Shown piece by piece: positions 24,390-61,656 of a stretch of DNA of 64,000 nt (within the stretch, counting starts at the first letter, position 1; each line of letters opens with the position of its first letter). This DNA is from an uncultured Bacteroidota bacterium (GTDB lineage Bacteria > Bacteroidota > Bacteroidia > 2-12-FULL-35-15): positions 62,001 to 126,000 of the forward strand of contig CAIYIS010000036.1 of NCBI GenBank assembly GCA_903926385.1, written 5' to 3'. A program made the position numbers and the translations under genes. Under the pieces are notes generated by a model, which was not told the DNA's origin, did not search any database, and saw only the letters and a program-made list of their open reading frames with translations.

Positions 24390-24473
24390 CTTTAAGAGAC
24401 CAAATACACGCTATAAGGAACCAAACACACGCTATTTGCAACCAAATACGCTCTATTTGCGACTGCATACAAC
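24390..24473. repeat. Tandem repeat, 4 units of 21 bp
   Basis: Units start at 24390, 24411, 24432 and 24453, each exactly 21 bp. Shared features are an initial CTAT, AACCAAA in the middle and an ATACACG-like end; the last unit is the most diverged. The unit differs from that of the larger array 170 bp downstream. Confidence 0.75.
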
Positions 24474-24641
24474 ATGTTTGCTCTTCTTGTCACTTTTCTT
24501 TAACTAATCAATTACGCTTATGGCAATATGGCTAATTGTTGCCCTATTTTTTGCCGTATTATCCCTATAAATTAACATTCGTTTTGTAAAATGCTTGAAA
24601 TATAGTATTTTAAAAAAGAAACAAAATAAAAAAGCTCGATT

Positions 24642-24934
24642 CCTACGTACAATGGGAGTGTTCCTGCGCACATAGAAAGTGTTCCAACGTGCATAGAAAG
24701 TGTTTTTATATACATAGATAGTATTTCTATGCTATAGTGTGAGCGCGTATGCACTCAGAAAGTGTTCCTACGTGCATGGAAAGTGTTCTTGTGTACACAG
24801 AAAGTGTAGTTATGCAAGCGGTGAGTCTTCCAATTTACGTAGGGTTGCTTCCACTGTACATAGGTTTGCCTCTATTGTAAGTATGTTTGCTTCTAATGTA
24901 AGTATGTTTGCTTCTGATGTACGTAGAAAGTATC
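24642..24934. repeat. Degenerate tandem repeat, 14 units of 21 bp
   Basis: Units begin at 24642 and continue in 21-bp steps; only the sixth (24747-24766) is 20 bp. Early units share ACGTGCATAGAAAGTGTT. Units 10-13 drift to a GTATGTTTGCTT ending, so the array changes gradually while the length stays fixed. The 21-bp period yields 7-residue repeats in open frames on both strands. Confidence 0.88.
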
Positions 24935-44995: not shown

Positions 44996-45107
44996 ATAAA
45001 TTGTTTTTCTAATTATTCCATTTGTTTAGACATCTATTCAACCCGAATAGCCAAATGGAATACTCCAAAAGCTAAAAGATGGGCTAATAGTGGCTTTCCT
45101 TTGTCCA

Positions 45108-45146
45108 AAAATCGGTAGTAATTTTTAAAAAATTACTACCGATTTT
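45108..45146. terminator. Long perfect hairpin formed by the first two units of the 45.1-kb array
   Basis: AAAATCGGTAGTAATTTTT (45108-45126) and its exact reverse complement (45128-45146) form a 19-bp arm pair with a single base between. The T-rich ends on both strands could make it a bidirectional terminator for the two converging transcripts. Confidence 0.5.
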
Positions 45147-45380
45147 TCTAAAAGGGCTGGCAATTTTTCTAAAATCGCTAGTAATTTTTTTAAAAGGCTA
45201 GTAGTTTTCAAAAAATCGGTTACCTTTTTCCGAAAAAGGTTACCCTTTTTTCAATAAAGGGTTGCCTTTTTTCAATAATCGGTTACCTTTTTCCGAAAAA
45301 GGCTTGCCTTTTTCGGAAAATTGCCAGTGATTTTTTTAAAATTACTACCGATTTTCAGAAATTTACTAGTTATTTTTGGG
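45108..45380. repeat. Degenerate tandem repeat, 13 units of 21 bp, with phased A and T tracts
   Basis: Thirteen consecutive 21-bp units run from 45108 to 45380 without a length change. Nearly every unit starts with an A-rich tract (AAAA or TAAA), has a 9-10 base GC-containing core and ends in a T-rich tract. Core sequences differ and some are reverse complements of others (CGGTAGTAA against TTACTACCG). No frame is open through it, so it is not coding. It fills most of the 508-base convergent gap between a plus-strand cargo gene and the minus-strand ABC pair; the rest of the gap shows no gene. Confidence 0.9.
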
Positions 45381-58454: not shown

Positions 58455-58481
58455 TTGGTTATGAAAAAAGAATTAATTTTG
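58455..58481 (+). promoter_or_regulatory. Candidate promoter of the MgtE-domain/Nramp operon
   Basis: TTG (58455-58457), a 16-base spacer and TAATTTTG (58474-58481). A second TAnnTTTG box, TAAATTTG, lies at 58435-58442. The leader to the ATG at 58622 would be about 135-175 bases. A 30-residue ORF at 58461-58553 overlaps this region and has no other support. The rest of the 318-base gap holds only the hairpin at 58587-58617. Confidence 0.35.
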
Positions 58482-58586
58482 CGCGATTTATTTTTTCAGC
58501 AATCAATAATGGACGAAGGCCCGAGTAGTAGATATTTAAACAACCTAAAGTAAATAGGGCGGCAATCTGAATTCTTTTCAGTAATT

Positions 58587-58617
58587 GCTTCCTTCTTTAC
58601 TACATAAGAAAGGAAGC
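58587..58617 (+). promoter_or_regulatory. Hairpin that could mask the ribosome-binding site
   Basis: GCTTCCTT (58587-58594) pairs with AAGGAAGC (58610-58617), extended inward after one mismatch. The right arm holds the AAGGAAG Shine-Dalgarno-like sequence six bases before the ATG. Such a sequence is rare in this window, so the pairing may control translation. Confidence 0.5.
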
Positions 58618-58621
58618 GATT

Positions 58622-59896
58622 ATGACTTCACAAATTACATTTTATTTAAGCAGGCTCATTGGTTCGCGATGCGTGGATGCCAATGGAAAAGTGGTGGGCG
58701 TTTTGAAAGATTTGATTATCGAAAATCAAACACATACGGAGGACGACAGCGAACCCATTCGCCCCAGAGTGCTTGCTTTTCAGATAAAACACAAGAGCCA
58801 TATTACTTACCTCAATGCTGAGTTTATCCATATCGAAAAGAAAAAAGATAATTATAAAATAATCTGCGATAAAGTGGAGCATGCTCATGCCGATGTTATT
58901 CATCATGCCCTGTTTTTGGTGGATAATGTGCTCGACAAACAAATAGTAGACATTAACGGACGAAAGCTGGTTAGGGTAAACGATGTGAGGCTGGTGGCTG
59001 TGCCTTCGGGTATTTATGCATTGGCTGTGGATGTGGGAGTAGAAGGTTTGCTCCGCAGAATTGGCATTGCCAAACAAATAAGCACTGTGCTCAAACCTTT
59101 CAGTGCTTCCATTCCTTCTAAGTTTTTTCTTTGGGACGATATAGCGGCTGTAGATTATGGCCATTCGGGCATTAAGCTTTCCAAAACCGTGGCTAAGTTA
59201 GAAACCCTGCATCCATCGGATGTGGCCGATATTATTGAAGATTTTGGTAAGCACGAAGGTTCGCGGGTGTTCGAAGCATTGGACGAAGAACATGCAGCCG
59301 ATGTGTTGGAAGAGCTCGAACCACATGCTCAGGTTCAGATTATCGAAAGTCTTTCGGTAGAAAAGGCGGCTGATGTACTCGAAAAGATGCCGGCAGACGA
59401 AGTGGCCGACTTGCTCGAAGAGTTAGGCGAAGAAAAAGCCGAACAGCTATTGATGGAAATGGACAGAGAATCGTCTGACGAGGTGCGCGAACTACTCGAG
59501 TATCCCGGCCATTCGGTGGGAAGTATTATGAGTACCGATTATTTTGTGTTTCACGAAAACACGGTGATTAATGATGTGCTCATTAAACTGAGAGAACAAA
59601 AACCCGAAGCCAATACCATTTATGCTTTATTTGTTATTGATAAATCGGATAAATTTTTGTCGGTGGTTACGCTTCGCGATTTGGTGGTGGCTCCTCCCGA
59701 CAAACGGATGAAAGATATTATGAAAAAGAAACCCATTTCTGTGTTTGATGATGACGACATTGATGTGTTGGGCGACCTGGTGTCGAAATACAATTTGCTG
59801 GCTGTGCCGGTTATCAACAAACAAAGGCAACTGGAAGGTATGGTGGTGATTGATGATATTGTGGAAGATTTATTAAATAAAGGGAAGACGAAATAA
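58622..59896 (+). CDS. PRC-barrel / MgtE N-domain / CBS-pair protein without membrane domain
   Basis: A 424-residue cytoplasmic protein. Residues about 1-75 and 100-170 look like PRC-barrel modules (LIGSRCVDANGKVVGVLKDL, VLDKQIVDINGRKLVRVNDV). From about 195 to 295 is an MgtE N-terminal superhelix (LHPSDVADIIEDFGKHEGS, DEVADLLEELGEEKAEQLLMEM). A CBS pair follows at about 298-420 (VGSIMSTDYFVF, MVVIDDIVEDLL). This is the Mg2+-sensing cytoplasmic part of MgtE channels, but the transmembrane domain is missing. The next gene is an Nramp homologue, which suggests that this protein gates or regulates that transporter according to Mg2+ level. Confidence 0.88.
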   Translation: MTSQITFYLSRLIGSRCVDANGKVVGVLKDLIIENQTHTEDDSEPIRPRVLAFQIKHKSHITYLNAEFIHIEKKKDNYKIICDKVEHAHADVIHHALFLVDNVLDKQIVDINGRKLVRVNDVRLVAVPSGIYALAVDVGVEGLLRRIGIAKQISTVLKPFSASIPSKFFLWDDIAAVDYGHSGIKLSKTVAKLETLHPSDVADIIEDFGKHEGSRVFEALDEEHAADVLEELEPHAQVQIIESLSVEKAADVLEKMPADEVADLLEELGEEKAEQLLMEMDRESSDEVRELLEYPGHSVGSIMSTDYFVFHENTVINDVLIKLREQKPEANTIYALFVIDKSDKFLSVVTLRDLVVAPPDKRMKDIMKKKPISVFDDDDIDVLGDLVSKYNLLAVPVINKQRQLEGMVVIDDIVEDLLNKGKTK

Positions 59897-59902
59897 GAAA
59901 GG

Positions 59903-59926
59903 GCCTCGCCCCTGTTAGGGAGAGGC
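59903..59926. repeat. GC-rich hairpin between the MgtE-domain and Nramp genes
   Basis: GCCTC (59903-59907) with GAGGC (59922-59926), and an inner CCCT / AGGG pair. It lies six bases after the stop codon and belongs to the GC-rich hairpin set of this window. Confidence 0.55.
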
Positions 59927-59981
59927 GATGATAAAGTAATTTATCGATGGACTTATTCAACAAAAGAAACAAATACGCTGT

Positions 59982-61232
59982 ATGGCTTTATTAAAAATGA
60001 AACGAAAAAAGTTCTGGGCTCAGCTGGCCATATTTGCTGCTGTGCTCGGGCCGGGCATTATTACAGGTAGTGTGGACAATGATGCCGGAGGTATTACCAC
60101 TTACTCTGTGGCAGGAGCCATGTATGGTTATCAGCTGGTGTGGACTCTTATTCCTTCGTTTATTGTTTTAATTATTATTCAGGAAATGAATGCCCGCATG
60201 GGTATAGTTACCGGAAAAGGACTGGCCGACCTTATTCGCGAAAATGCAGGCGTTAAAGTTACTTTCTTTATTTTCCTGGGTTTGCTGGTGGCCGACATAG
60301 GCAATACCACCACAGAGTTTGCCGGTGTGGCAGGCAGTATGGAGGTGTTTGGCGTGAGCAAATATATAGCGGTGCCTCTGGTGGCTTTTTCCATCTGGAT
60401 ACTGGTGGTAAAAGGTACTTATCAAAGTGCCGAAAAGATTTTCCTCGTGTTTAGCGTTTGTTTGCTTACGTATATTGTATCGGCCATTATGGGAAAACCC
60501 CACTGGGCCGAAATAGGACATTCCATTGCTCACCCTTCGTTAGACATGAATTCGCAAAGCATTGCTCTCGTTATTGGTTTGGTAGGAACCACCATTGCTC
60601 CCTGGATGCAGTTTTACATGCAGTCGTCTGTTATCGAAAAAGGATTGAAAATGAAAAACTATAAATATGTACTCATCGACATATTGATAGGTTGCATAGC
60701 CACAGTGGTGGTTGCTTTTTTTATCATCATTGCCTGCGCATCCACACTTCACGAAAACGGTATAGTAATAAACGAAGCCAAAGATGCCGCCATGGCTCTC
60801 AAACCTCTGGCAGGCGCACTGGCAGGTTATGTTTACGCCTTCGGACTCTTTATTGCCTCCATCTTTTCGGCCACCATATTGCCTCTTGCCACAGCTTTTT
60901 ATGTATGCGAAGCCTTTGGTTTCGAAGCCGGAATAGACAAGAAATGGAAAGAAGCTCCCGAGTTTTATACCCTTTACACCGGCATCATTGCCATTTCTGC
61001 CTTAATTATCCTTATCCCTAATGCACCTCTTATCAGCATCAGTTTATGGTCGCAGGTGCTCAACGGTATGTTGCTCCCTGTGGTGTTGGTTTGTATGATT
61101 TTGCTCGTAAACGACAAACGCATTATGGGCAAATATGTAAACAAAACAGTAAACAATGTAATAGGTTGGACTGCCGTAGCCGTGCTTGTAGCCCTTTCGG
61201 GTATCTTATTGCTAATGCCGTTTTTTAAATAG
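59982..61232 (+). CDS. Nramp (SLC11) family transporter, probable Mg2+ type
   Basis: A 416-residue inner-membrane protein with about eleven helices of the LeuT-like fold. In helix 1 the usual DPGN is replaced by D34-A-G-G within GSVDNDAGGITTYS. In helix 6 the usual MPH is replaced by A206-P-W (GTTIAPWMQFYMQ). The methionine that gives classical Nramp proteins preference for Mn2+ and Fe2+ is therefore absent, as known for Nramp-related magnesium transporters. The upstream gene encodes the MgtE sensory domains, which supports Mg2+ as substrate. Other divalent or trivalent ions are not excluded. Confidence 0.9.
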   Translation: MALLKMKRKKFWAQLAIFAAVLGPGIITGSVDNDAGGITTYSVAGAMYGYQLVWTLIPSFIVLIIIQEMNARMGIVTGKGLADLIRENAGVKVTFFIFLGLLVADIGNTTTEFAGVAGSMEVFGVSKYIAVPLVAFSIWILVVKGTYQSAEKIFLVFSVCLLTYIVSAIMGKPHWAEIGHSIAHPSLDMNSQSIALVIGLVGTTIAPWMQFYMQSSVIEKGLKMKNYKYVLIDILIGCIATVVVAFFIIIACASTLHENGIVINEAKDAAMALKPLAGALAGYVYAFGLFIASIFSATILPLATAFYVCEAFGFEAGIDKKWKEAPEFYTLYTGIIAISALIILIPNAPLISISLWSQVLNGMLLPVVLVCMILLVNDKRIMGKYVNKTVNNVIGWTAVAVLVALSGILLLMPFFK

Positions 61233-61353: not shown

Positions 61354-61656
61354 TTAATTACCGTTTTCTTTTATCAAACTATCAAGTTCTGGAAGTAAAA
61401 AGCAAGTTTCTTTTCGAAAAATGTCATCTTCTTTTCGAAACATGCAATCTTCTAAACGAAACTTATCATCTTCTAAACGAAACATGCAATCTTCTTTTTG
61501 AAACATGCAATCTTCTAAACGAAACTTATCATCTTCTAAACGAAACACGCAATCTTCTTTTTGAAACATGCAATCTTCGTTCAGAAACATGCAATTTTCG
61601 ATTTTCAGTAAGCAATCTTCTCCCGGCAACTTATCAGATTTCAAAAAAAACCTCAT
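61354..61656 (-). other. 100-residue ORF made of heptapeptide repeats, coding status doubtful
   Basis: The minus strand of the 21-bp array is open for 100 residues from an ATG at 61656. It reads as heptads of the type EDCMFRK, EDDKFRL and EDCMFQK with strict 7-residue spacing, rich in Asp, Glu, Cys, Phe and Lys. Openness could be a by-product of a 21-bp unit without a stop in this frame. No promoter box or signal peptide was seen. The related arrays at 24.6 and 45.1 kb do not support a coding role. Confidence 0.3.
61387..61638. repeat. Tandem repeat, 12 units of 21 bp with a 63-bp higher-order copy
   Basis: Twelve 21-bp units from 61387 to 61638, all the same length. Most begin TTCT, carry CGAAAC or TGAAAC in the middle and end ATGCAATC or TTATCATC. 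Units at 61450, 61471 and 61492 recur in the same order at 61513, 61534 and 61555 with one base changed in 63, showing a recent three-unit duplication. The array fills most of the 506-base gap between the Nramp gene and 61739. Confidence 0.93.

Follow-up and report, generated by a model that had tools for sequence, protein, structure and literature searches.

Introduction

The closest described relatives of the locus reported here are the NrmT operons of Shin et al. (2014). In the sections of that report drawn on here (PMC4072509), NrmT was named, most of its members were found to adjoin a gene for an MgtE N-terminal domain, and M-boxes were seen on some NrmT genes, with speculation on feedback regulation; both the NRMT-sensor pairing and the feedback idea are thus already published. 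According to the same sections, C. acetobutylicum NrmT works without an MgtE-type partner. With the NrmT of Acidobacterium capsulatum, rescue of a Mn2+ defect was obtained, and co-expression of the MgtE fragment from the same species neither improved rescue nor had a visible effect. Two enterobacterial leaders provide a further point of comparison. In Salmonella, the mgtQ leader combines Asp and Glu codons near its start with the stem-loops 2:3 and 3:4 and a concealed ribosome-binding site of mgtB (PMC8092293), and in E. coli MgtL, according to the part of PMC11282234 used here, the ribosome is lost at the EPDP stretch when Mg2+ is low, switching mgtA on.

The window, i.e., the whole stretch of DNA analysed, comprises 64,000 nucleotides from an uncultured Bacteroidota bacterium. 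A first-pass annotation had proposed that MgtE sensory domains without a channel are paired in it with an Nramp homologue of the NRMT type. This claim about the gene pair stands, the accompanying interpretation, in which the sensor appears to have been reassigned to another transporter fold, is supported in part, and a leader ORF upstream of the pair (58509-58553) is an addition beyond that annotation.

Results

Domain structure of the gene pair

The first gene, located on the plus strand at 58622..59896, encodes a protein of 424 aa with a PRC-PRC-MgtE_N-CBS-CBS architecture. Pfam matches comprise PRC (residues 6-37), MgtE_N (residues 196-295, E 3.5e-28) and two CBS domains, confirming the earlier description of a protein that lacks the MgtE membrane domain: the MgtE_N and CBS parts of an MgtE channel are present, whereas PF01769 and the plug helix are not. 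An AlphaFold2 model (pLDDT 87) shows PRC-like domains at about residues 5-85 and 95-176, followed by the MgtE_N helices and the CBS pair, the second PRC-like domain being defined from this model alone. On the plus strand, the two PRC-like beta domains (residues about 5-176) occupy 58634..59149, the MgtE_N domain 59207..59506, and the CBS pair (residues 299-420) 59516..59881. When the model was submitted to Foldseek, MgtE cytosolic domains were the top matches (E about 1e-20).

The adjoining gene (59982..61232, plus strand) encodes a 416-aa member of the SLC11/Nramp superfamily (Pfam Nramp, residues 38-388, E 4.3e-96), a putative Mg2+ importer. As the first-pass annotation had read, DAGG (60081..60092, plus strand) stands in the place of DPGN and APW in that of MPH: aligned TM1 reads DNDAGG where MntH has DPGN, and TM6 reads TTIAPW (60588..60605, plus strand) where MntH has ATVMPH. 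The protein therefore carries the DxxG (TM1) and TxxA/T (TM6) signature of the NRMT class. Among solved structures, EleNRMT 7qia is its closest match (E 1.6e-115, against 2e-24 for MntH), and in a phylogenetic tree that contains long branches the NRMTs are separated from both MntH and the majority of the other Nramp classes (SH-aLRT 97-100%), with the window protein in a clade of 48 NRMTs (SH-aLRT 100). Signature, structure and tree together support the class assignment.

Several variants were observed around this signature. The sensor-paired NRMTs of L138 and L142 have DAAG and TTISPW, and TM6 reads TTICPW in L109 and TTVTPW in L143. An Nramp homologue of genome G164 (L035), with no adjoining sensor gene, combines an NRMT-like TM1 (DAGS) with a TM6 that retains the methionine (AVIMPW), and lies on a very long branch near a group of 40%-identical NRMTs.

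Regarding the substrate, close members of the same supported clade lie in Bacillota operons under M-box riboswitches, which counts for Mg2+ transport, and the window NRMT is probably a Mg2+ transporter. The motifs DAGG and TTIAPW are not proof of Mg2+, since an Acidobacteriaceae relative (L150) has both, and neither can the substrate be read from the partner gene, since the NrmT of A. capsulatum, which has such a partner too, relieved a manganese defect.

Co-occurrence of NRMT and sensor genes

The gene pair recurs in dozens of genomes and is therefore not a chance arrangement. In the phylum of the window, all 36 loci with the NRMT motifs adjoin a sensor gene, compared with 0/35 loci of other Nramp classes. 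A genome survey for co-occurrence had been set beforehand as a test of the proposed link, and its possible outcome of no co-occurrence is excluded, because the NRMT search and an independent search with a PRC-bearing sensor profile, to which ordinary MgtE proteins align largely beyond about residue 181 and with at most 192 bits, marked the same 38 of 292 genomes.

Across many phyla, 81 NRMT genes were collected in 80 loci; after removal of the 4 that begin at a contig end, the sensor gene was found beside the NRMT gene in 73 of the remaining 77, mostly upstream but also downstream (L126, L134) or convergent (L131, L147). Among the four exceptions, one belongs to a genome with another complete pair, and three to genomes with a full-length sensor gene elsewhere, away from any Nramp gene. 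The exclusive link between NRMT and the channel-less sensor, like the NRMT assignment, is thus supported by two-way co-occurrence, by adjacency that persists through changes of gene order, and by M-boxes on related operons. No natural sensor-NRMT fusion was seen among the surveyed loci, and a model of the two proteins as one fused chain, obtained by reading through the stop codon, reached a pTM of 0.61.

In its own genome, this sensor is the only protein with an MgtE_N domain, accompanied by one CorA and one MntH-type Nramp, and the MgtE channel (PF01769) is absent from this genome and from the five NRMT genomes that are nearest to it in the phylum sample. MgtE is absent from 16 of the 38 genomes with NRMT and from 20 of the 254 others (p 4e-7, a value that treats related genomes as independent); within one genus, it is missing in 9/26 genomes with NRMT and in 1/20 without (p 0.03).

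The 40%-identical NRMT group (L010-L033, from genus g49 and its kin) has the gene order NRMT then sensor. Two sensor genes, G048:C45 and G047:C157, match the profile with one internal stop codon (TGA, TAA).

Mg2+ ligand positions of the sensor

Using the TtMgtE ligand numbering of PMC5882242, D227 of the window sensor corresponds to E59 (Mg7), D263 to D95 (Mg6), and D259 and D412 to the Mg4 ligands D91 and D247, while N391 replaces D226, the plug-bridging ligand of Mg5. The same pattern was found across 106 sensors, in which the E59 position is acidic in 94, D91 is Asp in 68, D95 in 88 and D247 in 95, whereas D226 is Asp in only 12, as against 19 of 20 MgtEs from the phylum. All 106 sensors end 6-30 residues past the D247 position. 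D226, the ligand that is lost, joins the CBS domain of MgtE to its plug helix, and the sensor has no such helix; the pattern fits a detached Mg2+ sensor that would act on a partner other than MgtE. The retained N/CBS Mg2+ sites together with the lost plug contact predict sites for mutation. Counting against our preferred explanation, the sensors of the L010-L033 group have Ala at the Mg4 ligand position Asp91.

A conserved leader ORF upstream of the operon

The consensus of the Bacteroidota -7 promoter element is TAnnTTTG. By direct reading, such an element, TAATTTTG, lies at 58474..58481 on the plus strand, the claim being limited to the -7 element and including no -33 element; a similar one occurs at the equivalent place in most aligned Bacteroidota relatives. 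It is followed on the same strand by the leader ORF MDEGPSSRYLNNLK (58509..58553), a candidate Mg2+-sensing leader peptide with the codons ATG GAC GAA GGC CCG AGT AGT AGA TAT TTA AAC AAC CTA AAG TAA. As in leaders of the MgtL/mgtQ type, a short ORF with early Asp/Glu and Pro codons is thus present upstream of a putative Mg2+ transporter gene. Having one Asp, one Glu and one Pro, it is weaker than the EPDP of MgtL and less acidic than most of the leaders found here.

Leaders were found in 30 of the 45 loci with upstream DNA of the clade of 48 NRMTs that includes the window (Bacteroidota, Bacillota and Kapabacteria), a count that takes in L080, L093 and L192; most leader loci come from metagenome assemblies. 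Relatives have, among others, MDDDPANILILTLIREDNR, MDDYPANII, MDEGPASTFINNLI, MDDDPAIRNLVRIIPVQ and MDPYPARNNSVIIP. The Clostridium-type leaders (MDGDPYDKQNS..., MDSDPYSQ...) and that of Desulfosporosinus (MDTDPDGR...) are each preceded by their own Shine-Dalgarno sequence. All of 25 loci use GAC or GAT as the second codon and CCN as the fifth, with variation at these codons confined to the third position. An M[DE]x0-3P frame occurs within 300 nt upstream in 29 of 88 sensor-first loci, compared with 2.7% of random positions, and a strict MDxxP frame at 90-200 nt occurs at 0.34% of random positions. A background estimated from other genes (24/638) was discarded because it probably included duplicate copies of leader loci. 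Outside the clade, L116 and L118 contain loose leader frames, probably by chance; all other leader loci lie within it. The leader is missing in several Ignavibacteriota and Omnitrophota members of the clade and in L074, the sister locus of the window in the tree, which counts against our preferred explanation.

Alternative hairpins between the leader and the sensor gene

Two mutually exclusive hairpins are predicted on the plus strand between the leader and the sensor gene, and may control it. Hairpin 2:3, a putative anti-sequestor (58551..58599, -15.3 kcal/mol, z -4.4), starts with the stop codon of the leader and ties up the anti-SD arm by pairing. Hairpin 3:4, a putative sequestor (58582..58622, -21.9 kcal/mol, z -5.2), shares arm 3 with it and hides the Shine-Dalgarno sequence of the sensor gene, AAGGAAG (58610-58616). 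In an alignment of 12 leaders, 7 of the 15 pairs of hairpin 3:4 show changes on both sides, and its covariation score of 0.370 exceeds that of shuffled (0.231; 0/500) and slid (at most 0.122) alignments. Hairpin 2:3 was assessed by swapping arms between loci instead of by column-wise covariation, because arm 2 is out of register between lineages. In 18 Bacteroidota loci, pairing was -16.9 for matched and -12.4 for swapped arms of 3:4, and -11.2 and -8.8, respectively, for 2:3; none of 2000 permutations, in which kinship is ignored, reached the matched value for either hairpin, and controls showed no difference.

A covariance model of the 12 leaders (R1) recovered loci left out of its construction, including L080 (103.5 bits) and L093 (76.4 bits), and in 30 genomes with NRMT operons of the clade it matched strongly solely at the operon. 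Across 292 genomes of the phylum it found only the window's own operon, on which ground a general Mg2+ leader for the whole phylum was rejected, plus one match in G047 that lies inside an elongation-factor-G-like frame and was judged to be chance.

M-box riboswitches and corA genes

The window gave no hit to the M-box (RF00380), nor any other Rfam leader on the operon, even at permissive thresholds, and the tested Bacteroidota loci contain no M-box; seven loci from Bacillota, by contrast, have one situated above the leader. The NRMT operon of L091, from a Mariniphaga MAG, faces a divergent corA gene (L223:1503). This corA is preceded by a leader of its own, MDDHPAEIKNLN (MDDHPAE), and has, like the operon opposite, a hairpin-prone Shine-Dalgarno region, which counts in favour of our preferred explanation. 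The same leader on corA genes generally was rejected, being accepted in only 1 of 57 corA upstream regions, and the corA of the window's own genome is without such a leader; both points weigh against our preferred explanation.

Elsewhere in the window, 61723-61766 matches the Flavobacteria S15 ribosomal leader below threshold (34.6 bits against a cut-off of 46.5), and imperfect 21-base tandem repeats (7-codon phase), different in sequence from place to place, occupy intergenic stretches at 24399-24926, 45107-45376 and 61397-61599.

Discussion

We consider it reasonably probable that the locus is a two-gene Mg2+ uptake operon under two layers of control, exerted by the leader and by the detached sensor acting on NRMT. 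The gene pair, its motif class and co-occurrence, the ligand pattern, the conservation of the leader and the covarying alternative hairpins are features read from the sequences; from here on we infer how they may work together, including sensor docking, Mg2+ as the signal and the polarity of the switch. The DxxG/TxxA signature would open up the Nramp site for the passage of hydrated Mg2+. The protein encoded upstream would be the cytosolic sensor of MgtE as a separate subunit. High Mg2+ would compact it by binding where the N and CBS domains meet, and it would dock on NRMT through the PRC domains or through new surfaces, slowing transport. At the level of translation, the first product would be a leader peptide that begins with M-D-x-x-P and spans about 9-33 codons. 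With sufficient Mg2+, the ribosome would arrive at the stop codon of the leader, where hairpin 2:3 has its foot, and would cover arm 2 and leave hairpin 3:4 to hide the Shine-Dalgarno sequence of the sensor gene; with low Mg2+, drop-off at the acidic and proline codons would allow 2:3 to form and the operon to be translated. This mechanism is suggested by analogy, the parts of mgtQ/MgtL being present here in the same order.

An alternative that we regard as unlikely is that NRMT moves Mn2+ or several divalent ions and that the MgtE-type protein senses something besides Mg2+. The A. capsulatum pair did behave as a Mn2+ transporter, and its family relative L150 shares the window motifs, but the M-boxes on Bacillota operons of the same supported clade, the separate MntH-type Nramp of the window's genome, the correlation of MgtE loss with NRMT presence and the resemblance of the leader to Mg2+-responsive leaders all argue against it. 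To a role of the sensor as a chaperone, assembly factor or membrane scaffold for NRMT, instead of a Mg2+-dependent brake, we give the same low probability: the two PRC-like domains added relative to MgtE, the loss of the plug helix and Asp226, and the activity of C. acetobutylicum NrmT without a sensor are in its favour, while the N/CBS Mg2+ ligand positions kept in most family members point to the brake.

The leader admits rival readings of its own. Somewhat less improbable than the two preceding alternatives is that it responds to translation rate, charged tRNA-Pro or the state of EttA instead of Mg2+, or that the hairpins act alone, e.g., as a thermosensor, without the peptide. Salmonella mgtP reads tRNA-Pro (PMC8092293), acidic leaders are EttA-sensitive (PMC11282234), and the sequestor is very stable by itself. 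Against these readings stand the coding pattern conserved at codons 2 and 5, the start of the alternative hairpin at the leader stop codon, and the position of the leader on a probable Mg2+ transporter operon, joined by an M-box in seven Bacillota loci. Very improbable, finally, is that the leader ORF is a chance frame within a conserved RNA that is not translated. Bacteroidota leaders indeed have no obvious Shine-Dalgarno sequence of their own and are conserved only in their N-terminal part, but the invariant Asp and Pro codons vary at the third position across phyla, the Bacillota leaders follow their own Shine-Dalgarno sequences, lengths change in frame, and strict MDxxP frames at such a distance are rare at random positions.

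No published description of this leader was found in the open-access literature searched, and the sections of PMC4072509 drawn on here make no mention of a leader peptide; we regard the leader ahead of the NRMT-sensor operon as a new element, with a putative function. Whether it is an M-D-x-x-P nascent-peptide Mg2+ sensor and translational attenuator outside Enterobacteria, accompanying the NRMT-sensor operon across Bacteroidota, Bacillota and Kapabacteria and lying beneath an M-box in Clostridium-type operons, we judge to be evenly balanced. If the leader works as read here, Mg2+ sensing through ribosome stability would be no peculiarity of enterobacteria: it would be found in several phyla with a transporter of unrelated type, either by itself or in combination with an M-box, and a Clostridium-type operon would read Mg2+ in three ways, by riboswitch, ribosome stability and detached protein sensor. 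The survey also sharpens the 2014 question on the role of the MgtE fragment, its association with NRMT being nearly free of exceptions.

Compared with the NrmT operons of Shin et al., as described in the sections of PMC4072509 considered here, the locus shares the transporter class, the partner gene and the feedback proposal, and differs in its Bacteroidota lineage and in the absence of an M-box from the tested loci; two-way counts, unlinked cases, MgtE loss and the ligand pattern are added here. EleNRMT (7qia; Ramanadane et al. 2022, PMC8806188) has the same DxxG-TxxA site and is similar over the whole length, and the text of PMC8806188, with no mention of CBS, operon or PRC, does not treat a sensor partner. 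The cytosolic domain of TtMgtE (2yvy) has in common with the sensor the N domain, the CBS pair and most Mg4, Mg6 and Mg7 ligand positions; unlike it, the sensor has no channel or plug helix, has D226 replaced and has gained two N-terminal PRC-like domains. The M. tuberculosis M-box with the uORF rv1805A (PMC12810186) likewise combines an M-box, a small ORF and a translational platform, but there regulation acts on the uORF itself, which has a conserved Pro7 and is restricted to mycobacteria, whereas the window has no M-box. Closest to the window leader are mgtQ and MgtL, which also have a short ORF, early acidic and proline codons, alternative hairpins and a downstream Mg2+ transporter gene, and, in the case of mgtQ, a hidden ribosome-binding site. 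Unlike them, leaders of the window type occur in unrelated phyla, serve another transporter family, precede the first gene of an operon, carry the MDxxP motif and, in some Bacillota, are stacked below an M-box.
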